From: Winogradskyella thalassocola
Lineage (GTDB): Bacteria; Bacteroidota; Bacteroidia; Flavobacteriales; Flavobacteriaceae
Assembly (NCBI RefSeq): GCF_900099995.1
Contig: NZ_FNCZ01000001.1
Span: forward strand, 62,001 to 126,000
DNA length: 64,000 bases
Direction of reading: 5' to 3'
The position numbers were made by a program, and so were the translations under genes. Each line of letters starts with the position of its first letter. The stretch's first letter is position 1. Below, one piece after another: positions 17,666 to 29,053 of the stretch. The notes below the pieces were generated by a model. It saw only the letters and a list, made by a program, of their open reading frames with translations. It was not told the DNA's origin and did not search any database.

Positions 17666-20308
17666 TTAATCCGCATAGTTTAACTCACCATTCGCTTCTT
17701 GCTCTTTAAATTTCTTTACCAATTCTAAAGCGTCAGGTATCACATCACTACATAATATAATAAGTGAGCCTTTGACAGCATTTCTAACGGCAAATTTAAT
17801 CGCTTCTTTTTCTGATGGAATAATAGTCGTCTTCTTATTAGGATCTCGTTTCTTAATCCCATCATCTAGCATCTTAATCAATTCTTGTTCTGTTTTACCT
17901 CTTAAACGCTTGTCTTGTCTAATAATAATTTCATCAAACATGTCGGCAGCAATAGCTCCCATTTCATTGTTATCTTCTACACGTCTGTCTCCAATGCCTG
18001 CAATGATACCTACTTTTACGGTCGCTTCAAGTTCATTCGTAAACGCTTGCAAGGCTCGCATTCCTGCTGGATTATGAGCATAATCGAGTAAAATAGTAAA
18101 GTCTTTAAATTCAAATAAATTTAAACGTCCAGGTGTTTGAGATGCGGAAGGTATAAAGGTTTCCAAACCTGCCTTCATATCTTCAATACTAATACCTTGT
18201 ACATGTGCTCCTAAAACGGCTGCTAGTACATTCTGAATCATGAATTTTGCTTTCCCACCATAGGTCAACGGAATATTTTCAGCCTTCATTAAGCGCATTT
18301 TCCATTCTCCTCTACATATGGTTACGTAACCATTTTCATAAACTGCAGTAATACCATTTAAGCGTTGTAAAGCCTTAATATGCGGATTGTTTTCATCCAT
18401 AGAAAATAACGCGACATTACAATCTAAACTACGACGCATATCATACACCAAAGGATCATCTGCATTTAAAATAGCGTAGCCATCTGGTAAAACCGTTTCT
18501 GGCACGACTCCTTTTACTTTGGCCAATTGCTCTATGGTGTGAATGCCTTTTAAACCTAAATGATCTGCTGCAACATTGGTTACAATAGCGACATCACATT
18601 TTTTAAAGCCTAAACCAGCTCTGAGTAAGCCACCACGTGCACATTCTAAAACGGCAAAATTCACGGTAGGATCCTTTAATACAAATTCTGCACTTGCAGG
18701 CCCCGTACAATCGCCCGTCATTAATAAACGGTTCTGAATATAAACACCATCACTAGTGGTATAACCCACTCGATAGCCATTCATCTTGGCTATATGAGCC
18801 ATTAATCTAGACGTCGTTGTTTTTCCGTTAGTTCCTGTAATGGCAATAATTGGAATACGCCCTGTGTCTCCTTTGTTTGGAAATAATTTATCAATTACCG
18901 GAGCGGCTACATTTCTTGGCAATCCAGATGTTGGTGCTAAGTGCATTCTAAATCCAGGACCTGCATTAACTTCTAAAACAGCTCCTCCGGTTTCGGATAA
19001 AGGCTGTGAAATATCAGTGGTCATAATATCAATACCACAAATATCTAAATCAATAATTTTAGAAATACGCTCTGCCATACTTACGTTTGCAGGATGTATA
19101 ATGTCGGTAATATCTTCTGCGGTTCCTCCTGTACTTAAATTGGCGGTGTCTTTTAATATTAGACGTTCACCTTCTGCAATGACAGATTCTAAAGTATAAC
19201 CAGCATCTTTTATAATGGTTAGTGTTAATTCGTTCGTAGTGATTTTTGTCAATACATTTTCATGTCCAAAGCCACGACGCGGATCACTATTCACTTTATC
19301 CATTAATTCTTGAACTGTAGATGTCCCATCTCCAATCACATGTGCAGGAGTTCTAATCGCTCCAGCGACTAACTTATTATTAATGACCAGTAATCTATAA
19401 TCTTGACCAACAATAAACTTTTCAACGATAATCGCTCCACTTTTAGAACTTTCTTTCGCATGGTGAAAAGCCGCTAGTGCATCCTCATAATTTTGAATAT
19501 CTACAGTAATCCCACGACCATGATTACCATCAATGGGCTTAATTACCAAAGGATAACCAACATAATCACAAGCCTCTTGTAAACTACGTTCACGACGAAT
19601 AATATCTCCACGCGGTACTTCAACCTCAGCTTGTTCTAATAAAAACTTAGTATCTTCTTTATCGCAAGCCAATTCTACTCCAATACTACTCGTTTCAGAC
19701 GTTACGGTGGCTTGAATTCGTTTCTGATTCGCACCATAACCCAACTGACAAAGCGAATATTTATTAAGACGAATCCAAGGAATACCGCGCGCTTCGGCTT
19801 CTTCAACAATAGACCCTGTACTCGGACCTAAACGATCGGCTTCACGCAATTCTCTCATTTCCTGAATATCATCAGTCAAGTCGTAGGCTTCACCTGCAAT
19901 TAAGGCTTCACATATTCTCACTGCCGATTTAGCTGCAAAACGCCCAACGGATTCTTCCATATATGAAAAAACAACGCTATACACACCTTTTTCGCCATAA
20001 CCTCTAGTACGACCAAAGCCCGTATCCATTCCTGCAAGGGTTTGAATCTCTAAAGCAATATGCTCTATAATATGACCCATCCAAGTCCCATCATCAACGC
20101 GCATAAAAAAACCACCTTCACAACCTTCAGAACAGCGGTGCGAATACATTGTAGGAAACATGGTTTTTAATCGCTCTGGAAAACCTTCAATTTTATTAGA
20201 AGGTAATTCTTCCATCTCTTCAAGATCGAGAACCATTACAATTAATTTATGTCGTCTTACAGACCAGTAATTAGGTCCTCTCATCGCATTAATTTCGCGT
20301 ATTTTCAT
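17666..20308 (-). CDS. cphA: Cyanophycin synthetase
   Basis: CphA polymerises Asp and Arg into the storage polymer cyanophycin. The 880-residue length is standard. The N domain (1-165) includes H79-x-x-E82-H83, which matches the metal-site pattern reported for CphA N domains that make their own primers. The ATP-grasp domain (about 210-480) has EVPRGDII, YPLVIKPIDGNHGRGI and ICGIDIMTTD. The Mur-ligase-like domain (about 490-880) has the P-loop ITGTNGKTTTSRL and LDYAHNPAGMRAL. Cyanophycinase is encoded divergently 97 bases away and an isoaspartyl peptidase lies beyond, so synthesis and breakdown are encoded together. Confidence 0.96.
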   Translation of the reverse strand: MKIREINAMRGPNYWSVRRHKLIVMVLDLEEMEELPSNKIEGFPERLKTMFPTMYSHRCSEGCEGGFFMRVDDGTWMGHIIEHIALEIQTLAGMDTGFGRTRGYGEKGVYSVVFSYMEESVGRFAAKSAVRICEALIAGEAYDLTDDIQEMRELREADRLGPSTGSIVEEAEARGIPWIRLNKYSLCQLGYGANQKRIQATVTSETSSIGVELACDKEDTKFLLEQAEVEVPRGDIIRRERSLQEACDYVGYPLVIKPIDGNHGRGITVDIQNYEDALAAFHHAKESSKSGAIIVEKFIVGQDYRLLVINNKLVAGAIRTPAHVIGDGTSTVQELMDKVNSDPRRGFGHENVLTKITTNELTLTIIKDAGYTLESVIAEGERLILKDTANLSTGGTAEDITDIIHPANVSMAERISKIIDLDICGIDIMTTDISQPLSETGGAVLEVNAGPGFRMHLAPTSGLPRNVAAPVIDKLFPNKGDTGRIPIIAITGTNGKTTTSRLMAHIAKMNGYRVGYTTSDGVYIQNRLLMTGDCTGPASAEFVLKDPTVNFAVLECARGGLLRAGLGFKKCDVAIVTNVAADHLGLKGIHTIEQLAKVKGVVPETVLPDGYAILNADDPLVYDMRRSLDCNVALFSMDENNPHIKALQRLNGITAVYENGYVTICRGEWKMRLMKAENIPLTYGGKAKFMIQNVLAAVLGAHVQGISIEDMKAGLETFIPSASQTPGRLNLFEFKDFTILLDYAHNPAGMRALQAFTNELEATVKVGIIAGIGDRRVEDNNEMGAIAADMFDEIIIRQDKRLRGKTEQELIKMLDDGIKKRDPNKKTTIIPSEKEAIKFAVRNAVKGSLIILCSDVIPDALELVKKFKEQEANGELNYAD

Positions 20309-20374
20309 GTTCGTTGGTTTGTTTTAGTTATTGAAAGATTCTAAATATAGTATTTTTCACTAAAAAAAATGGCT

Positions 20375-20382
20375 TATTTTTG
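20375..20382 (+). promoter_or_regulatory. -7 promoter box for cyanophycinase
   Basis: TATTTTTG matches TAnnTTTG, 24 bases upstream of the start codon at 20406. No clear -33 TTG is visible. Confidence 0.5.
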
Positions 20383-20405
20383 GGCAATATTTTTAGATAC
20401 AAATT

Positions 20406-21269
20406 ATGCAGAAGATAAAGGGAACTTTAATACCTATTGGAGGAAATGAAGATAAAGGGATTGAAGAAAGTGAAATCTACACACTAGAGTTTATTGACGA
20501 AGGTATTTTGTACCACGTTGTTAAAGAAGCTGGAGGAGTTGATGCCAAAATTGTGGTGATACCAACAGCATCTAGTATTCCTGTTGAAGTAGGTGAAAAT
20601 TATCTAACAGCTTTTTCAACTTTAGGTTGTAAAAACGTTACCGTTTTAGACATTCGTTCTAAAGAAGATTCTGAAACGGAACACGCCATTGAACTTATAA
20701 AAAGTGCTAACTGCGTTATGTTTTCTGGTGGTGATCAATCTAAGATCACCGATAAAATTTGCGGAACTATAATACACACCATTCTGGCGGAACGCTTCGT
20801 TAATGAAGCTGGTTTTGTTATTGCGGGCACAAGTGCTGGCGCCATGGCAATGGCCAACGAAATGATTGCTGGCGGAAGTGCTTCGGAATCGTTTATTAAA
20901 GGTGCCGTGAATATGTATAAAGGTTTAGGCTTGATTCCTGAATTGATTATAGACACCCACTTTATACGTCGTGGTCGCTTTGGAAGACAGTCTGAAGCTG
21001 TTGCTAAATTCCCGAATCTTATTGGGTTTGGACTAGCTGAAGATACAGGCATGATTATTAAAAACGGAAATGATTGTACGGTTATTGGCTCTGGAATGGT
21101 CATTGTTTTTGATGGAAGCACATTAACGCATAACAATGAAAAAATATTAGAAGAAGGAACGCCAATGACTATGGCAAACCTTACGATTCATGTATTATCT
21201 AACGGAGATGAGTACAGTATTAAAACTCGAAAAGTAAAAGTGTTGCCTATTGAAGCTCCTTTCATCTAA
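20406..21269 (+). CDS. cphB: Cyanophycinase
   Basis: CphB is a serine exopeptidase that releases beta-Asp-Arg dipeptides from cyanophycin. The 287-residue protein has the nucleophile elbow GTSAGAMAM with Ser143, the upstream FSGGDQSKI loop, and DTHFIRRGRFGRQ, which holds the likely catalytic His and substrate-binding Arg residues. The start ELIPIGGNEDKG is typical of the family. No signal peptide is present, so the enzyme is cytosolic like the polymer. It is divergent from cphA, which suggests coordinated but separately controlled synthesis and breakdown. Confidence 0.95.
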   Translation: MQKIKGTLIPIGGNEDKGIEESEIYTLEFIDEGILYHVVKEAGGVDAKIVVIPTASSIPVEVGENYLTAFSTLGCKNVTVLDIRSKEDSETEHAIELIKSANCVMFSGGDQSKITDKICGTIIHTILAERFVNEAGFVIAGTSAGAMAMANEMIAGGSASESFIKGAVNMYKGLGLIPELIIDTHFIRRGRFGRQSEAVAKFPNLIGFGLAEDTGMIIKNGNDCTVIGSGMVIVFDGSTLTHNNEKILEEGTPMTMANLTIHVLSNGDEYSIKTRKVKVLPIEAPFI

Positions 21270-21349
21270 CACACACACATCCCTTTGAAAAAAGGGATCT
21301 CATTACTATATACTAGATTTTACTGATTTATAAAAACGTTTCCCAAAAT
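21270..21349. other. Spacer with small hairpin after cyanophycinase
   Basis: ATCCCTTT and AAAGGGAT (21279-21298) can pair just after the cphB stop, but no T-run follows, so terminator function is uncertain. An ACACACAC tract precedes it. Confidence 0.35.
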
Positions 21350-21730
21350 CACACTTCGCGTCTTAGCGCCTTTGCGAGAATATTTCACAGAGATACACAG
21401 CGGTTACACAGAGAGAAAGACATCAACAAAAAACAAATTCCAAAAAGTTTTTAAACAACCACACTTTGCGTCTTCGCGGCTTTGCGAGAATATTTCACAG
21501 AGATAAACAGAGGTTTCACAGAGATACACAGAGAGAAAGACATCAACAAAAAACAAATTCCAAAAAGTTTTTAAACAACCACACTTTGCGTCTTAGCGCC
21601 TTTGCGAGAATATTTCACAGAGATAAACAGAGGTTTCACGGAGATACACAGAGAGAAAGATCTCAAGAACAAAACTAAACAACAAGCAACCACACTTCCC
21701 GCCTTTGCGCCTTTGCAAGAAAATCACACA
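21350..21730. repeat. Imperfect tandem repeat, about 110-120 bp period, 3.3 copies
   Basis: Units begin ACACTT(C/T)GCGTCTT at 21351, 21461 and 21581, with a decayed partial unit near 21692. Each carries CTTTGCGAGAATATTTCACAG, then AGATA(C/A)ACAG and GAGAGAAAGA, and the first two end with the identical CAAAAAGTTTTTAAACAACC. The first unit lacks about 10 bases relative to the second. Open frames here are by-products of the repeats. Repeats with similar GCG-rich/CACAGAG wording occur between genes of many Bacteroidota; function is unknown. Confidence 0.85.
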
Positions 21731-21780
21731 GATTTCATAAACTTACACAAACACCCATTGGAAGCAATATCTTAATCGTT

Positions 21781-21868
21781 TTCAACCTTGAAACTATGAA
21801 ACCTTGACACCTTGAGACTTTGAAACTATACAACTCTGAGACTTTGAAACCTTGAAACTTTGAAACCT
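21781..21868. repeat. Short-period repeat of GAAAC(T/C)(T)TTG/ACCTTGA units
   Basis: About nine degenerate 8-10 base units (TTGAAACT, TTGAAACC, TTGAGACT) follow one another directly after the longer tandem repeat and end just before the isoaspartyl peptidase stop codon. Confidence 0.8.
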
Positions 21869-21875
21869 CACAAAC

Positions 21876-22814
21876 CTATCCATAAATAGAAACATCATCA
21901 ATCCCATCAGAAGATTTCTGCCCTCTGTACATCCCTTCGGTATTAAATGGCATCGCAATGTTCCCTTTCGTATCCACAGCAATTAAACCGCCATCACCTC
22001 CAATTTCGAGGATTCTTTTATGGATGACTTCACTTGAAGCGTCTTTTACGGACATGCCTTTGTGCTCCATTAAACAAGCCACATCATAAGCCACCACACC
22101 ACGAATAAAAAACTCACCGCTTCCGGTACAACTAATAGCACAGGTTTTATTATTGGCATAATTTCCGGCACCAATCATTGGTGAATCGCCTACACGTCCC
22201 CATTTTTTATTGGTCATACCACCTGTTGATGTTGCTGCTGCAATGTTTCCATCTTTATCGCAAGCAACCGCTCCAACAGTTCCGAATTTTGAATCTTTCT
22301 TCTTAGCATGATCTAACTGAAAACTATCGGTATCCTTAATCTCTAACCATTGGTTGTGTCGAAACTCATCATAAAAATAAGACGCATCTTCCAACTTATA
22401 ATTGAGTTCTTTCGCAAACTGCATTGCTCCGTCTCCGGCTAAAAACACATGCTCGCTTTTTTCCATGACGTCACGCGCCAAAGACACGGGATTTTTAATT
22501 CCTGTAATTAAACTCACGCCTCCTGCATTCAAGGTTTTACCATCCATGATACTGGCATCCATTTCATGCGTTTCAGTAGCTGTAAATACAGAGCCTTTTC
22601 CGGCATTGAATAAATGAGAGTCTTCTAATAATTTAACCGCAACTTCAACAGCTTCAACAGCGGTTTTTCCCGCTTCTAAAACTTTGTATCCTGAGTCTAA
22701 CGCTAATTGTAATGCTGATTTATACTGTGCTTCTAATTCTGGAGTCATCATCCCTTTGACTAAAGTTCCTGCGCCTCCGTGAATGGCTATTGAGAATGTT
22801 TTCATGGGTATCAT
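21876..22814 (-). CDS. Isoaspartyl peptidase / L-asparaginase (Ntn hydrolase)
   Basis: This plant-type asparaginase family enzyme hydrolyses beta-aspartyl dipeptides and asparagine. The 312-residue precursor starts with SIAIHGGAGT, carries NAGKGSVFT, HEMDASIMDG and the autocleavage site FGTVGAVA with nucleophile Thr179, followed by GRVGDSPMIGAGNYAN and CTGSGEFFIRG. A second in-frame ATG three codons in is an equally good start. No signal peptide. With cyanophycin synthetase and cyanophycinase nearby, the natural substrate is probably beta-Asp-Arg, giving free Asp and Arg; this last step is inferred from context. Confidence 0.93.
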   Translation of the reverse strand: MIPMKTFSIAIHGGAGTLVKGMMTPELEAQYKSALQLALDSGYKVLEAGKTAVEAVEVAVKLLEDSHLFNAGKGSVFTATETHEMDASIMDGKTLNAGGVSLITGIKNPVSLARDVMEKSEHVFLAGDGAMQFAKELNYKLEDASYFYDEFRHNQWLEIKDTDSFQLDHAKKKDSKFGTVGAVACDKDGNIAAATSTGGMTNKKWGRVGDSPMIGAGNYANNKTCAISCTGSGEFFIRGVVAYDVACLMEHKGMSVKDASSEVIHKRILEIGGDGGLIAVDTKGNIAMPFNTEGMYRGQKSSDGIDDVSIYG

Positions 22815-23170: not shown

Positions 23171-26023
23171 ATGTCAGATCAAAAACGCCTATTTCTAGTT
23201 GATGCTTACGCTTTAATTTTCCGCGGGTATTATGCTTTTATAAAAAATCCAAGAATCAATTCTAAAGGGGAAGACACCTCAGCCATTATGGGCTTTATGA
23301 ATTCACTTTTAGATGTCATTAAACGTGAACGACCAGATCATTTAGCTGTTTGTTTTGACAAAGGAGGTAGTGTAGACCGCGTGGAAATGTTCGAAGCCTA
23401 TAAAGCCAACAGAGACGCCACACCAGAAGGCATTAAAACAGCCATTCCGCATATTTGTAATATTCTTGAAGCCATGCACATTCCAATCATGGTAAAAGAA
23501 GGATACGAGGCTGATGACGTCATTGGTACCTTAGCTAAAAAAGCCGAAAAAGAAGGTTATAAAACCTTTATGGTAACTCCAGATAAGGATTTTGCACAAC
23601 TCGTTTCAGAAAACATTTTTATGTACCGACCTGTCTTTGGAGGTGGTTACGAAACTTGGGGCATCCCAGAAGTACAAAAGAAATTTGAAGTTACCGATCC
23701 ACTACAAGTCATTGACTTTTTAGGGATGATGGGAGATGCTTCTGATAATATTCCTGGACTACCTGGTGTTGGCGAAAAAACAGCTAAGAAATTTTTAGCG
23801 GCTTACGGCAGCATGGAAAACCTTTTTGCAAATTCACATGAGCTAAAAGGGAAGATGAAAGAAAAGATTGAAGCCAATCAAGAACTCGGTTTATTATCAA
23901 AACAACTCGCTACCATTATGCTCGACGTCCCTGTAGAGTTTAATGAAAAAGATTTTGAAATGTCAGAACCTGATATTCCAAAAGTGACTGAAATTTTTCA
24001 AGAATTAGAATTTAGACGTCTCATTGATAATTTTAATAAAACCTTTTCTGCTGAAGCTATGCAATCTGCTGGAACTTCAACTCCAACCTCTGATAAAAAG
24101 GAAGCTCCCAAAACAACACCTACTGAAGAAAAATCTGCCGGAGCTGGTCAATTCTCCTTATTTGGTGGTGCAGAACCATCAGCAACGGAAGCTGTATCTG
24201 AATTTACGCGTAAAACAGCTGAAACCACATCCCATTTTTATCAAAGTGTAGCATCGGGAATGGCAACCAAGCTCTTCGTTAATAATTTAATGAGTCAGAC
24301 CTCGGTGTGCTTCGATACCGAAACCACAGGCTTAAATGCATTAACCGCAGAATTAGTCGGGATTGCATTTTCTTGGGAAGTTGGCAAAGGATTTTATGTC
24401 CCATTTCCAGAAGATAGAAATGAAGCGCAAGAATTAATTGAAACCTTCAGACCATTTTTCGAAAATGAAACCATCGAAAAAATCGGTCAGAACTTAAAAT
24501 ACGACATCAAAGTATTAGCCAAATACAATATCGATGTTAAAGGCAAACTCTTCGATACCATGTTAGCGCATTATTTAATTAATGCAGACATGCGTCACAA
24601 TATGGACATCTTAGCAGAAACCTATTTAAACTATACACCAATTTCTATTACAGAGCTTATTGGTAAAAAAGGAAAGAATCAATTGTTTATGCGCGATGTG
24701 CCGTTAGAAAAACTAACAGAATACGCTGTAGAAGATGCCGATATTACCTTACAGTTAAAAGAACATTTCACAACGGAATTAGGCGAAGCTAATACTCAAA
24801 AATTATTCGATGAGATTGAAATTCCGCTACTACGTGTCTTAGCAGCTATGGAATTAGAAGGGATTAACCTTGATAAAGACTTTCTAGCCTCCTTATCTGA
24901 AGACCTAAATAACGACATCGCAACGCTCGAACAAGAAATCTACGCAACAGCAGGCGAGGAATTCAACATTGCTTCACCAAAGCAGTTAGGGATTGTGTTG
25001 TTTGAAAACATGAAATTGGTCGATAAACCAAAGAAAACCAAAACAGGTCAATATGCTACTGGCGAAGATATCTTATCCTATTTAGCAAAAGACCATGATA
25101 TCATTCAGAAAATATTAGATTTTAGAGGCCTTTCAAAATTAAAGAGCACCTATGTAGATGCTTTGCCTTTACAAGTAGAATCATCAACAGGTCGTGTGCA
25201 TACCGATTACATGCAAACTGTGGCAGCAACTGGGCGTTTAAGTAGTAACAATCCTAATTTACAGAATATTCCAATTCGTACCGAACGTGGTCGTCAAGTG
25301 CGTAAAGCCTTTGTGCCAAGAAACGAAGAGTACATCTTACTCGCTGCCGATTATTCGCAAATAGAATTACGAATCATTGCTGCTTTAAGTGAAGAAGAAA
25401 CCATGATAGAAGCCTTTAAAAATGGTGAAGATATTCATGCTTCAACCGCATCCAAAGTATTTAATGTGCCATTGGCTGAAGTCACCAGAGAACAACGTAG
25501 CAATGCCAAAACCGTCAATTTCGGAATCATCTATGGTGTGTCTGCCTTTGGGTTAAGTAACCAAACCGATTTATCGCGTGGTGAAGCCAAAGAACTCATT
25601 GACACCTATTACGAAACCTATCCAAAATTAAAAGCCTACATGAGTAAGCAAGTCGATTTTGCTAGAGATCATGGCTATGTCTCTACCGTTTTGGGTCGTC
25701 GTCGTTATTTAAAAGACATCAACTCGCGTAACGCTGTGGTGAGAGGTGCCGCAGAACGAAATGCCGTTAACGCACCCATACAAGGAAGTGCGGCCGATAT
25801 CATTAAAATTGCGATGATTAATATTTATAACAAGCTAGAAGCTGGTAATTATAAATCGAAGATGCTCTTACAAGTACATGATGAATTGGTCTTTGACATC
25901 TACAAACCAGAACTCGAAGAACTCACCACCTTAATTAAAACCGAAATGGAAAGTGCATTTATTATGGATGTGCCTTTAGATGTTGAGGTGGATACTGGTG
26001 TTAATTGGTTGGAGGCGCATTGA
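23171..26023 (+). CDS. polA: DNA polymerase I
   Basis: PolA fills gaps and removes RNA primers. The 950-residue protein has a 5'-nuclease domain (1-290; LFLVDAYALIFRGYYAF, EADDVIGTLA, TPDKDFAQL, GLPGVGEKTA), a linker rich in Thr/Ser/Glu (about 300-350), and a 3'-5' exonuclease domain (about 370-560) that keeps the acidic residues CFDTETTGL, NLKYDIKVL and YAVEDADITLQL, so proofreading is likely active. The polymerase domain has motif A LAADYSQIELR, motif B RSNAKTVNFGIIYG and motif C LLQVHDELVFDI. It ends in DTGVNWLEAH, and a second degenerate copy of this 3' end occurs at 30929-30967. Confidence 0.98.
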   Translation: MSDQKRLFLVDAYALIFRGYYAFIKNPRINSKGEDTSAIMGFMNSLLDVIKRERPDHLAVCFDKGGSVDRVEMFEAYKANRDATPEGIKTAIPHICNILEAMHIPIMVKEGYEADDVIGTLAKKAEKEGYKTFMVTPDKDFAQLVSENIFMYRPVFGGGYETWGIPEVQKKFEVTDPLQVIDFLGMMGDASDNIPGLPGVGEKTAKKFLAAYGSMENLFANSHELKGKMKEKIEANQELGLLSKQLATIMLDVPVEFNEKDFEMSEPDIPKVTEIFQELEFRRLIDNFNKTFSAEAMQSAGTSTPTSDKKEAPKTTPTEEKSAGAGQFSLFGGAEPSATEAVSEFTRKTAETTSHFYQSVASGMATKLFVNNLMSQTSVCFDTETTGLNALTAELVGIAFSWEVGKGFYVPFPEDRNEAQELIETFRPFFENETIEKIGQNLKYDIKVLAKYNIDVKGKLFDTMLAHYLINADMRHNMDILAETYLNYTPISITELIGKKGKNQLFMRDVPLEKLTEYAVEDADITLQLKEHFTTELGEANTQKLFDEIEIPLLRVLAAMELEGINLDKDFLASLSEDLNNDIATLEQEIYATAGEEFNIASPKQLGIVLFENMKLVDKPKKTKTGQYATGEDILSYLAKDHDIIQKILDFRGLSKLKSTYVDALPLQVESSTGRVHTDYMQTVAATGRLSSNNPNLQNIPIRTERGRQVRKAFVPRNEEYILLAADYSQIELRIIAALSEEETMIEAFKNGEDIHASTASKVFNVPLAEVTREQRSNAKTVNFGIIYGVSAFGLSNQTDLSRGEAKELIDTYYETYPKLKAYMSKQVDFARDHGYVSTVLGRRRYLKDINSRNAVVRGAAERNAVNAPIQGSAADIIKIAMINIYNKLEAGNYKSKMLLQVHDELVFDIYKPELEELTTLIKTEMESAFIMDVPLDVEVDTGVNWLEAH

Positions 26024-26024
26024 T

Positions 26025-26411
26025 ATGAAAACAATTCCTGTTACTTGTGCCATTATTCAATTTGGCAGTAAAGTTTTAGCTATTCAACGAAGTGAAACAA
26101 TGAAACTTCCGTTAAAATGGGAATTTGCTGGAGGAAAAATTGAACCTGGTGAATCTGAAATTGAATGTGTTAAAAGAGAAATATTTGAGGAATTGAATAT
26201 TCATATTGAAGTCAAAGAAAGGTTAAATCCTGTTATTCATCAATACCCAGATTTTAAAATAAAATTGATTCCATTTACTGCGGACTATGTTTCAGGAGAG
26301 CTGAAGCTTAAAGAACATTCCGATTATGTATTAGCAAATAAACAAGAATTGATTAATTTAGATTGGGCAGAAGCTGATTTACCAATTTTAAAAGAATATT
26401 TAAAAGCTTAA
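26025..26411 (+). CDS. NUDIX hydrolase (MutT-like)
   Basis: The 128-residue protein has a full Nudix box: G-x5-E-x7-R-E-x-x-E-E-x, reading GGKIEPGES then VKREIFEELNI. The N-terminal TCAIIQFGSKVLAIQRS and the small size resemble MutT/8-oxo-dGTP diphosphatases and related CTP pyrophosphohydrolases; substrate is not decided. I chose the ATG at 26025, one base after the polA TGA, because upstream in-frame starts would lie inside polA. Its stop overlaps the end of the convergent helicase gene by 4 bases. It may be cotranscribed with polA, or be the first gene of the block between the two polA ends. Confidence 0.9.
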   Translation: MKTIPVTCAIIQFGSKVLAIQRSETMKLPLKWEFAGGKIEPGESEIECVKREIFEELNIHIEVKERLNPVIHQYPDFKIKLIPFTADYVSGELKLKEHSDYVLANKQELINLDWAEADLPILKEYLKA

Positions 26412-28375
26412 AATAATTCTTCGATTCCTATCTCCTTCAAATAATTATAAGTCCCTTCATAAAATTTATTTGGTCTTGTATGGTCACTATCTGAACCTTT
26501 TGGAATGAAAATAATCATACCTTGTCTTGCTCTGGTTAACAAAACGCGGTAAGTATTTTTTAAGTAGCTCTTACTTACCTCCTGGTTTATATTTTGCCAT
26601 TTACTTCCTTTGAAGTTTTGGTAATTCCATCTATCTCCATTTAAATGAAAATTTGCGCCCCAAATTAAACAAGTTCTATCTATTTCTAAACCCTGAATAT
26701 CAAACTCAGTTGCGATATCTTCATGAAAATATGAAGACCTAATATCCTCACTTGAATTTAAAAACCAATAAGGTGCGGATATTTCATTTTTCACATTATA
26801 GCCTATAGCTTTCAACCTTCTAGCACCCGAAGAGGCAATTAGACCAGTTCTTTCTGTTCCCTTACTTTCTTTTCTCAACCAATTTTTAGCTATTTCCATA
26901 TCTCTAGTTAGAAATATAGGAAATGATTTTTTAACTTCTGAATATATCTTTTTCGTATTATCTAAATTCAATTCTAATAGTTCATGTACAAAAGCAGATA
27001 CCTGTTCTGACCTGAAAGAGCGTACTGAAACTGATAAATGTAAATCTGTTTCAGAAGTTCCATTTTCAATTAGCCATTTTCTTTGAGTTACACTTTTAAT
27101 ATAATTAGGACTATTAATTATTGTATTTGAAAAATGAATCTCCCAATCTTTATAGTTCTCTTCAAATGCATTAATCCACTCTTCTAAACCTGCTTCACCT
27201 GTATTTATCTCTTGTCCTCCTCCAATTAAACAAACTATTGTACACCAATCTTCATGACGATTCATTACATCAATTAGGAATTCAGGTTCAGACATAGCAA
27301 AATTTTCTATGCCCTTTTTTCTTTTCATAAAAGAGCTAACCTGCTTTTTAGTCCATGCTCTTTGAGCTTCATCAAAAACAACAACTTTTTCTGTTGGTTC
27401 AACATTATGTTTTAAATATTCATCTCTAAAATGATGAATGTTTTGAATAAATGTACTCGTTCTTCTTTTTGCATTTTCCTTAGTTACTTTTTCTCCATTC
27501 TCTAACGATGTTAAAACAAAATCTCTTGCTAAAGCCTCTCTTAATACCTCTACTAACGGACCATTTCCTGAAAGAAAAACAGCATGTTCATCTTCATCAG
27601 CAAGCATTCTTTCATTTGCAATGCTTAAACCCGCTAAAGTCTTTCCTGCTCCAGGCACTCCTGTTATAAAACAAATTGATTTTTTGTGGTTTCGTTTGGA
27701 ATTTTCAATAACTCCATTTATATAATTAGAAGTTTTATTAAGATTTATTTTACCTGAGTCATGTCTAGATATTTCTTCAACCTTATGTCCTTTATACAAA
27801 GCTTGCGCAGCCTCAACAATTGTCGGAGTAGGTTTATAAATTGAATTTTGCCATTCATCTATATTGATTCTCTCTTTAGAGTGCAAAAGAAATTTTTCTA
27901 TATTATCTTTTATACCTGATTTATTACATTTTGCAACTTGCCGATGCTCTAAGACTTCATTTATATTTATAGAACTATTATCAGCATTAGTAGCGACCAA
28001 TAACGGTATCAATTTCACAAAATGACTTCCTTCATGGAAATTTTTCAAATCTAAACAATAGTCAATTACTTGTAATTCGGCATGTTTACCATATGTATCA
28101 TCACCAATTTTAAATTCAACAACAAAAACGCAATCATCAACAATAATTATGTTATCTACTCTCTTTCCCATTCTTGGAATTTGAAATTCAAAATAAATTG
28201 AACCATCTATTCCATTCAATTCATCTTTAAGAATTTCAATCTGTTTTACCCAAGCATTCTTTTGTAAGTCCTCTAATGAACGATTTGTATGATTTAAGCT
28301 TAAGTATCCTAAAATTGAACTTAAGTCCTCTTTAATAAAACTTGAAATCGTATTACTATAATAAGCTCTACCCAT
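26408..28375 (-). CDS. Predicted PD-(D/E)XK nuclease fused to Schlafen-group-3/DUF2075-type helicase
   Basis: The 655-residue protein has two parts. Residues 55-115 look like a PD-(D/E)XK nuclease: E63, then D74 in RVDNIIIV, then E87-F-K89 in VFVVEFKIG, then a helix with Q102 and Y106. Residues 230-650 are a superfamily 1-like helicase: Walker A GVPGAGKT (239-246), Walker B VVVFDEAQRAW (DEAQ 336-339), a motif III-like CLIGGGQEINTG, and LLTRARQGMIIFIP at the end. This fits the DUF2075/SLFN-g3 helicase family, related to the helicase of vertebrate Schlafen proteins. It starts directly after the stop of the XRE gene (TAGATG), so the two are an operon. No function is established; defence against foreign nucleic acid is a hypothesis. 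Confidence 0.82.
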   Translation of the reverse strand: MGRAYYSNTISSFIKEDLSSILGYLSLNHTNRSLEDLQKNAWVKQIEILKDELNGIDGSIYFEFQIPRMGKRVDNIIIVDDCVFVVEFKIGDDTYGKHAELQVIDYCLDLKNFHEGSHFVKLIPLLVATNADNSSININEVLEHRQVAKCNKSGIKDNIEKFLLHSKERINIDEWQNSIYKPTPTIVEAAQALYKGHKVEEISRHDSGKINLNKTSNYINGVIENSKRNHKKSICFITGVPGAGKTLAGLSIANERMLADEDEHAVFLSGNGPLVEVLREALARDFVLTSLENGEKVTKENAKRRTSTFIQNIHHFRDEYLKHNVEPTEKVVVFDEAQRAWTKKQVSSFMKRKKGIENFAMSEPEFLIDVMNRHEDWCTIVCLIGGGQEINTGEAGLEEWINAFEENYKDWEIHFSNTIINSPNYIKSVTQRKWLIENGTSETDLHLSVSVRSFRSEQVSAFVHELLELNLDNTKKIYSEVKKSFPIFLTRDMEIAKNWLRKESKGTERTGLIASSGARRLKAIGYNVKNEISAPYWFLNSSEDIRSSYFHEDIATEFDIQGLEIDRTCLIWGANFHLNGDRWNYQNFKGSKWQNINQEVSKSYLKNTYRVLLTRARQGMIIFIPKGSDSDHTRPNKFYEGTYNYLKEIGIEELF

Positions 28376-28645
28376 CTAATTATCAGTCTTTAGTTCATAA
28401 TCTTGATGGTTTAATTTTGGATTCTGATTTTTGAAGTTTACTAAATCAGAAATATCCATTTCAAAGGCTTTTGAAAATACAGCAATATTGGTAAGAGATA
28501 TATTTCTCTCACCTCTTTCAATCATTCCAATATATGTACGATGAAATCCTGTTTTAAAAGAAAGCTGTTCTTGGCTCAACTGTTCTTGTGTTCTTAAGTA
28601 TCGAATTCTAGCCCCAAATTCTTTTAAAAGAAACTTATTTACCAT
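28376..28645 (-). CDS. XRE-family helix-turn-helix regulator
   Basis: The 89-residue protein is essentially one Cro/CI-type HTH domain (residues 8-65): ARIRYLRTQEQLSQEQLSFKTG, then the recognition region FHRTYIGMIERGERNISLTN (each a normal HTH_3 element). No sensor or effector domain is present. It is the first gene of a two-gene operon with the nuclease-helicase. A perfect 14-bp inverted repeat lies 12 bases upstream of its start codon, overlapping its probable promoter, so it most likely represses its own operon and perhaps the divergent gene. Confidence 0.92.
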   Translation of the reverse strand: MVNKFLLKEFGARIRYLRTQEQLSQEQLSFKTGFHRTYIGMIERGERNISLTNIAVFSKAFEMDISDLVNFKNQNPKLNHQDYELKTDN

Positions 28646-28656
28646 TTATCGAAACT

Positions 28657-28694
28657 ATACTTATTGTATGCGTAAATCAACATACAATAAGTAT
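28657..28694. promoter_or_regulatory. 38-bp palindrome, probable XRE operator
   Basis: The arms ATACTTATTGTATG (28657-28670) and CATACAATAAGTAT (28681-28694) are exact reverse complements with a 10-base spacer. They lie in the intergenic region between the XRE gene and the divergent cysteine-rich gene. On the minus strand the palindrome covers the spacer between a TTG and a TAGTTTCG box (-7-like, one mismatch), and its other edge lies 8 bases from the plus-strand -7 box. Confidence 0.8.
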
Positions 28695-28702
28695 CATTTT
28701 GT

Positions 28703-28710
28703 TATATTTG
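28703..28710 (+). promoter_or_regulatory. -7 promoter box for the cysteine-rich gene
   Basis: TATATTTG matches TAnnTTTG exactly and lies 25 bases before the ATG at 28736. The expected -33 region falls within the right arm of the palindrome, so a bound repressor would probably block it. Confidence 0.6.
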
Positions 28711-28735
28711 ATTTTAATAAGATGATTAAATTGTT

Positions 28736-29053
28736 ATGACTCGGTACGCAAGAAAATGTAGTGTTGACGGCAAAGGAATGAACTCAGGATTTCTATTTGA
28801 GAATGAAATGTATTATTGCAAAAATGAAGAGCAAGCAAAAGAATATGTAGAATCTTTAGGCTTAAATTGGGTAAAAGAATTAAAAACTATTCATACAAAA
28901 AAAGAGTGGTTCTACTATACCGAATGGGAAGAAATTGATGAAGATGAATTCTTTGATTCTCATGGAAACACTTATAAACTGTGTCTCAATTGCAGAAAAG
29001 CCGTGAGGGTATATACGGATTTTAACATGTGTAAATGCGAAAATCACCTCTAA
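28736..29053 (+). CDS. Small cysteine-rich, probably zinc-binding protein of unknown function
   Basis: The 105-residue protein has six Cys in pairs or singles: C8 in ARKCSVDG, one in MYYCKNE, LCLNC near residue 85, and MCKCENH at the end. The CxxC and CxC pairs suggest a zinc ribbon. The middle is strongly acidic and aromatic (WFYYTEWEEIDEDEFF). I do not recognise a characterised family. It is transcribed divergently from the XRE/nuclease-helicase pair across a shared palindrome, which is the only hint that it belongs to that module. Confidence 0.72.
   Translation: MTRYARKCSVDGKGMNSGFLFENEMYYCKNEEQAKEYVESLGLNWVKELKTIHTKKEWFYYTEWEEIDEDEFFDSHGNTYKLCLNCRKAVRVYTDFNMCKCENHL

Follow-up and report, generated by a model that had tools for sequence, protein, structure and literature searches.

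A Schlafen-type helicase-nuclease and a NUDIX hydrolase of Winogradskyella thalassocola as a candidate modification-dependent restriction module

What is the function of a bacterial protein that joins a nuclease to a relative of the vertebrate Schlafen helicases, and which of the genes around it belong to the same system? The question is raised by a locus in a 64,000-nucleotide stretch of the Winogradskyella thalassocola contig NZ_FNCZ01000001.1 (positions 62,001 to 126,000; hereafter the window), where the gene of a 655-residue nuclease-helicase (HEL; 26408..28375, minus strand) is abutted by that of a small XRE/Cro-type regulator of 89 residues (XRE; 28376..28645, minus strand), and a gene for a cysteine-rich protein (CYS; 28736..29053, plus strand) diverges from the pair across a palindrome. 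The original prediction read these three genes as one phage defence or toxin module. The observation itself was confirmed, and the nuclease, the helicase and the XRE-operator unit stood, while the three-part module did not and a recurrent fourth gene, convergent with HEL and coding for a NUDIX protein, had been missed. Our best reading is that HEL is a new, Schlafen-helicase/PD-(D/E)XK kind of type-IV-like restriction enzyme. We give somewhat better than even chances to the fuller proposal, in which XRE, HEL and NUDIX form a modification-dependent (type-IV-like) restriction module, HEL depending on modified cytosine and NUDIX cleaning up 5-substituted dCTP. This reading comes from the sharing and swapping of partners, gene fusions, a second operon with an SRA-HNH gene, the depletion of C5-methyltransferases and the likeness of NUDIX to known enzymes.

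The PD-(D/E)XK nuclease predicted at the N-terminus of HEL was borne out in both fold and motifs. The structure model has DNA-type PD-(D/E)XK folds as its best matches, and the core (residues 36-128; 27992..28270, minus strand) shows the alpha-beta-beta-beta-alpha-beta order with the D...ExK signature (E63, D74, E87-x-K89 and Q102-x3-Y106). Among the matches of this part are the CRISPR effectors Can2/Cdn1 and one chain of McrBC. The helicase part (residues 232-625; 26501..27682, minus strand) is of the Schlafen group 3/SF1 type as proposed, scoring 260 bits with PF09848 against a gathering score of 24; it matches SLFN11/SLFN14 and UvrD, and its Walker A (residues 239-246) and Walker B (DEAQ, 335-338) motifs are invariant among the aligned homologues. 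A type IV enzyme combines a nuclease, an NTP-driven motor and a base reader; HEL contains nuclease and ATPase motifs, and no reader domain was found in it. PADLOC matches it at full length to the single-gene defence candidate PDC-S41 (8e-284, nearly the whole model covered), and a modification-dependent restriction enzyme fits the data better than a toxin. At six loci (L028, L029, L030, L043, L047 and L079), HEL carries a C-terminal extension with the motif ICSEWYE..NNDRP, and at L113:5107-5406 the same extension has a gene of its own (99 residues), which separates HEL from NUDIX; the extension might serve in reading or specificity.

HEL was found at 12 places in 11 of 199 Flavobacteriaceae genomes from 198 genera (the family sample), and as 22 genes in 21 of 326 genomes of a phylum sample. 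Because of this sporadic occurrence, it is not a housekeeping gene. It appeared in one of 50,697 phage records and four of 72,556 plasmid records, indicating that it is not mainly phage- or plasmid-borne. In addition, 80 HEL loci were fetched from genome contigs; these loci overlap with the family sample and are no independent set, because G084 and G153 are probably the same strains as L008 and L011, and G117, G005 and G109 also look like L021, L029 and L047.

The recurrent partner of HEL in Flavobacteriaceae is the NUDIX gene. In the window it encodes a predicted NudG-like (d)NTP diphosphatase of 128 residues (26025..26411, plus strand), starts one nucleotide past the stop of polA (named from its sequence; 23171..26023, plus strand) and converges on HEL with a 4-nucleotide overlap of the gene ends. 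PADLOC matches it to another candidate, PDC-S07 (1.3e-45, nearly the whole model covered). NUDIX is itself sporadic, with 27 places in 25 of the 199 genomes, and lies within 500 bp of, or is fused to, seven of the 12 HEL genes in the family sample, against a rough chance expectation of 0.0015. Among the 80 loci, eight have a convergent NUDIX gene, five of them in the polA neighbourhood of the window, and two (L019 and L041) have NUDIX fused to the N-terminus of HEL, a fusion that is also found in P0120 and G160. At L113:7569-11878, HEL-NUDIX is adjoined by two genes, one for a STAND-NTPase protein that weakly matches Mrr_cat and one for a protein with a dCMP_cyt_deam_1 deaminase domain; this is likely a defence cluster.

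NUDIX is not confined to HEL. Thirteen of its 27 places in the family sample lie directly upstream of a protein of 972-1157 residues that has DUF3427 in all 13 cases; in two of these that were searched with Pfam, PLD and SF2 helicase domains were present as well, and PADLOC assigned the same two to mREase_IV, the type IV methyl-directed restriction enzymes (1.5e-225 and 2.6e-237). DUF3427 occurs at 18 places in this sample: the 13 behind NUDIX, one in a NUDIX-HEL operon (G007) and four without an adjacent NUDIX. One further NUDIX gene (G093; L112) precedes an AAA ATPase and a DUF2357/PD-(D/E)XK protein, PDC-M26A in PADLOC, a pair that we read as McrBC-like; one (G132; L119) stands behind an HNH gene that weakly matches SRA; one (G013; L111) accompanies an HpaII restriction-modification (R-M) system; and at four places, including G089 near a contig end, no partner was recognised. 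At L111:2165-4527, the HpaII endonuclease and its C5-methylase stand beside NUDIX at polA, a maker of 5-methylcytosine in the place of enzymes that attack it. In the phylum sample, NUDIX matches were found in 175 of the 326 genomes; a non-random subset of 20 high-scoring places with short frames, leaving out long frames of about 360-420 residues, which we take to be MutY fusions, had a SauUSI-like enzyme of the PLD-helicase-DUF3427 type at ten places, an SRA-HNH gene at one and neither at nine.

The partners are exchanged around closely related NUDIX genes and at the same chromosomal sites. In a tree of 56 NUDIX rows, the window protein falls into a clade of 16 with 99/97 support, whose partners are HEL (nine), SauUSI-like enzymes (five), a McrBC-like pair (one) and the HpaII R-M system (one). 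One starred sub-clade mixes L007 (HEL) with G093 (McrBC-like) and G013 (R-M), and another mixes G173 (SauUSI-like) with L005, L006 and L050 (HEL). The site after polA holds a SauUSI-like partner in G061, G091, G173 and G387, HEL in the window, G084, G153, L004, L005 and L009, and HpaII in G013; in G173 and L005 an extra gene lies between polA and NUDIX. A second site, next to a gene that we take to be pepP (83% identical), is occupied by the SauUSI-like enzyme in G157, a member of the window's own genus, and by HEL in L006 and L050. At a third site, with flanks 81% and 68% identical, G074 has NUDIX with a SauUSI-like enzyme and G073 has HEL-XRE without NUDIX. On the HEL tree (92 rows, made by a quick method, with long branches flagged), linkage to NUDIX needs five changes and linkage to XRE nine. 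Both trees omit G084 and G153, which are probably the same strains as L008 and L011, and the HEL tree also omits G109 and L079.

If HEL attacks DNA with 5-methylcytosine, its carriers should lack C5-methyltransferases, a prediction that was fixed before the data were seen. In the family sample, PF00145 (E ≤ 1e-20) is present in 85 genomes, none of the 11 with HEL and 85 of the 188 others (p 0.003; this and the other co-occurrence p values ignore phylogeny and multiple tests). The nine HEL genomes without DUF3427 also have none (p 0.011), and the DUF3427 genomes, taken as a positive control, have it in two of 18 (p 0.005). Across the phylum sample, where seven of the 21 HEL genomes belong to one genus, PF00145 occurs in three of the 21 and in 146 of the 305 other genomes (p 0.003), or in three of 19 HEL genomes without the two common to the family sample (p 0.008). 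N6-adenine methyltransferases (PF02384), counted in the family sample, are instead in excess, being present in ten of the 11 genomes with HEL and 100 of the 188 others (p 0.025), so that there is no shortage of R-M systems in the HEL genomes. The window genome has no PF00145 gene and two PF02384 genes, both on contig C18, other methyltransferase families not having been searched, and the PF00145 and PF02384 searches found no cognate methyltransferase in the locus, as for a type IV system.

A second helicase type extends the association. In the same genome, on contig C19 at ~1672.9-1676.0 kb (L126:4421-7514), a NUDIX gene, a 608-residue helicase and an SRA-HNH gene run in one direction, and the helicase belongs to the PADLOC family of HEL (4e-132). 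Fusions to NUDIX make up 17 of the 120 listed relatives of this helicase. This helicase type also occurs on an Exiguobacterium plasmid, beside McrC and an AAA ATPase, and has weak matches to AbiO and Nhi; two further plasmid stretches bore no annotation.

The chemistry of NUDIX can be approached through its matches. Of the 56 rows, all but the fused L041 have an intact NUDIX box (55), and Asp118 of the window protein (numbered with the start Met) is conserved in all 56. The best solved match is 3gwy, a putative CTP pyrophosphohydrolase (8e-25), and the lower ones include 3ees, a probable pyrophosphohydrolase (6e-15), and the CTP pyrophosphohydrolase 2rrk (7.5e-14), presumably E. coli NudG, while the E. 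coli MutT entry 1mut reaches 4.7e-5. NUDIX probably clears 5-substituted dCTP. According to a part of PMC5158307, E. coli NudG has a kcat/Km (in 1000 /M/s) of 1,300 with 5-methyl-dCTP and 47 with CTP; an excerpt of PMC3744803 quotes 300 for 5-methyl-dCTP at pH 9.1 and describes MutT itself as weakly active on this substrate, and Orf135 is named among pool sanitisers in a section of PMC10742078.

The XRE-operator unit that had been proposed is supported. XRE has the R-M Control_protein as its best PADLOC match (1.4e-20) and abuts HEL under a perfect 14-nucleotide inverted repeat (28657..28694; arms 28657-28670 and 28681-28694, loop 10 nucleotides), which none of 500 shuffles reached. In all eight aligned loci, namely the window and seven with a close XRE (L004, L006-L009, L011 and L050), the palindrome ATACTTATTGTATG-loop-CATACAATAAGTAT hardly varies, in contrast to the flanks and the divergent gene. 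G073, whose XRE is 73% identical, carries at the equivalent position a copy that has diverged by six mismatches in 34 but preserves the pairing of the outer part of the arms (ATACTCATTGT and ACAATGAGTAT); in L005, which is without XRE, there is no copy, the best candidate having 11 mismatches. The repeat covers a putative XRE-HEL promoter (28650..28680, minus strand), with a TTG (28680-28678) inside the loop and TAGTTTCG (28657-28650), which resembles the Bacteroidota -7 box, at the end of the right arm, four nucleotides ahead of the XRE start codon. This placement suggests that XRE-HEL is autorepressed and its transcript near-leaderless, as for the controller genes of R-M systems. A putative -7 box of the divergent gene, TATATTTG (28703..28710, plus strand), adjoins the palindrome. 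A scan of promoter and terminator signals found them no commoner than in shuffles.

The third member of the predicted module is not conserved. CYS, a protein of 105 residues with six cysteines and no family, was found in two of the 80 loci (L006 and L050, the latter matching in two pieces), an XRE match directly upstream of HEL in 17 of the 80, and the divergent gene at the other aligned loci is a different one. With nine relatives in ~5.8 billion proteins, CYS was rejected as a core part and is a rare, variable passenger beside the operator. An uncharacterised family of 78-189 residues (EYLxxSRTIE...YNYEG) recurs around these systems, beside NUDIX at polA, divergent from XRE or beside a SauUSI-like gene (L008:8369-8626, L011:8394-8642, L118:1487-1735 and L123:7432-7668; beside XRE in L060, L070, L071, L072 and L075); three members were scanned and none had a Pfam match over the cut-off.

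We infer the following mechanism. HEL would be an ATP-driven SF1 translocase whose PD-(D/E)XK nuclease attacks DNA containing 5-methylcytosine or a related modified cytosine. NUDIX, read together with polA, would hydrolyse 5-methyl- or 5-hydroxymethyl-dCTP coming from phage or from DNA breakdown and thereby keep the forbidden base out of host DNA, so that the host escapes targeting by HEL. XRE would bind the palindrome over its own promoter and hold XRE and HEL at a low level, like the controllers of R-M systems.

Several known systems resemble parts of this module. The type IV enzyme SauUSI, described in portions of PMC7913695 and PMC3874153 as PLD-SF2 helicase-DUF3427/SRA, is like HEL a helicase with a nuclease, and SauUSI-like enzymes share with HEL the NUDIX neighbour, the insertion sites and carriers without C5-methyltransferases; HEL differs in combining an SF1 Schlafen-type helicase with PD-(D/E)XK instead of SF2 with PLD, and an SRA/DUF3427 reader was not recognised in it. 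SRA-HNH and McrBC systems occur beside members of the same NUDIX family or beside the second helicase type, whereas neither SRA nor McrB was recognised among the genes of the window module. The vertebrate Schlafen group 3 proteins SLFN11 and SLFN14 have a related helicase; the N-terminal model of HEL has its best matches among DNA-type PD-(D/E)XK folds. R-M C proteins with their C-boxes are, like the window XRE, small XRE proteins with a palindrome over a putative promoter; the window genome, in contrast, has no C5-methyltransferase, and its two PF02384 genes lie on another contig. Already known are the PADLOC models of both genes, as separate single candidates that are here linked in one module, and MutT homologues adjoining SauUSI homologues in Streptococcus (a figure legend in PMC7641849). 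In the open-access PMC literature we found no paper that ties NUDIX to a Schlafen-group-3 helicase or proposes pool cleaning in type IV restriction, and the available sections of PMC7159879, PMC9503650 and PMC3710099 contain nothing on the NUDIX-Schlafen link.

Other explanations account for parts of the data. HEL may be a Schlafen- or RecB-like sensor of phage replication intermediates (ends, forks or single strands) that responds by DNA destruction or abortive infection and does not require modified bases, NUDIX draining dNTPs or phage-modified dNTPs as a second arm. The helicase matches to SLFN11/SLFN14 and UvrD, the nuclease matches to Can2/Cdn1 and McrBC, the defence-like STAND-NTPase and deaminase-domain neighbours at L113, the lack of a recognised reader domain in HEL and the weak AbiO and Nhi matches of the second helicase type would all suit such a sensor, but it predicts neither the absence of C5-methyltransferases in genomes that have N6-methyltransferases nor the way in which HEL and type IV enzymes replace each other beside one NUDIX, and we consider it unlikely. 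A type II toxin-antitoxin pair, with XRE as antitoxin and HEL as toxin, seems less likely, given the few loci (17 of 80) that have an XRE match and an operator that resembles a controller site.

Two further possibilities concern NUDIX, and we would be surprised by either. It might be an ordinary MutT-type enzyme that shares hotspots after polA or pepP through insertion bias, with no functional tie to HEL, as could be argued from the HpaII system beside it at polA, the four partnerless places, the MutT-named chain among its solved matches and the HEL genes without it outside Flavobacteriaceae. However, the link turns up at several sites, polA and pepP among them, and in two helicase clades; the genes may converge, share an operon or be fused, and NUDIX itself is sporadic. 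Alternatively, it might be no pool cleaner at all and might read modified cytosine in DNA to recruit or gate HEL. The NUDIX-like domain of MutY reads 8-oxoG, fusions place NUDIX beside the nuclease of a protein without a recognised reader of its own, and the fused L041 NUDIX is kept despite the loss of box residues; against this role, the box is intact in the other 55 rows, and the majority of the HEL genes observed lack a NUDIX next to them.

The restriction reading has to be set against observations that weigh against it. In none of HEL, XRE and CYS could a base-reader domain be recognised. Support for the substrate of NUDIX is thin: its second solved match, 5x1x (1.8e-18), is named Mutator mutT protein and ranks ahead of 2rrk, and the NudG equivalog NF007834, its best NCBIfam match, reaches 77.1 bits, below the cut-off of 156, so that NudG-like is a lead and not a membership. 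The fused L041 NUDIX has lost some box residues. Within 1.5 kb (less at contig ends) of the phylum-sample HEL genes, NUDIX was found only at the window genome's two and in G160; together, the family and phylum counts mean that the HEL-NUDIX link is strong in Flavobacteriaceae and was not seen for the HEL genes found outside. Lack of C5-methyltransferases is a statistical tendency, uncorrected as noted: of the three phylum HEL genomes that have one, G479 has its HEL split into two frames, whereas G248 and G381, with unbroken HEL, are plain exceptions. Vsr genes, which usually accompany C5-methyltransferases, lie about 2 kb from XRE-HEL at L060:3191-3679, L070:3859-4251 and L075:3234-3848, which again ties the system to 5-methylcytosine but could speak for or against the reading. 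Scans around other HEL homologues gave no clear excess of defence genes near the helicase: in random sets of neighbour proteins of at most 900 residues (100 of the 146 proximal and 100 of the 104 distal ones), PADLOC found defence genes in both without clear difference, and the 25 Pfam families shown of the 115 in the proximal set are mostly ordinary.

At lower positions of the window (17666-22814), three genes lie together that we take to encode a cyanophycin synthetase (17666-20308), a cyanophycinase (20406-21269) and an isoaspartyl peptidase (21876-22814).

The modification-dependent restriction reading invites a wider and tentative conjecture, to which we give clearly less than an even chance: modification-dependent restriction enzymes may have an overlooked self-protection NUDIX, a swappable antitoxin-like part that serves such unrelated effectors as SauUSI-like, McrBC-like and SRA-HNH enzymes and a new Schlafen-helicase/PD-(D/E)XK class of type IV enzymes to which the window locus would belong. 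If the reading is true, a large uncharacterised family of helicase-nucleases related to the human antiviral Schlafens would gain a mechanism, the attack on modified-cytosine DNA, and PDC-S41 and PDC-S07 would be joined in a single system. The reading would likewise offer a clue to how hosts without a protective methyltransferase escape self-restriction.

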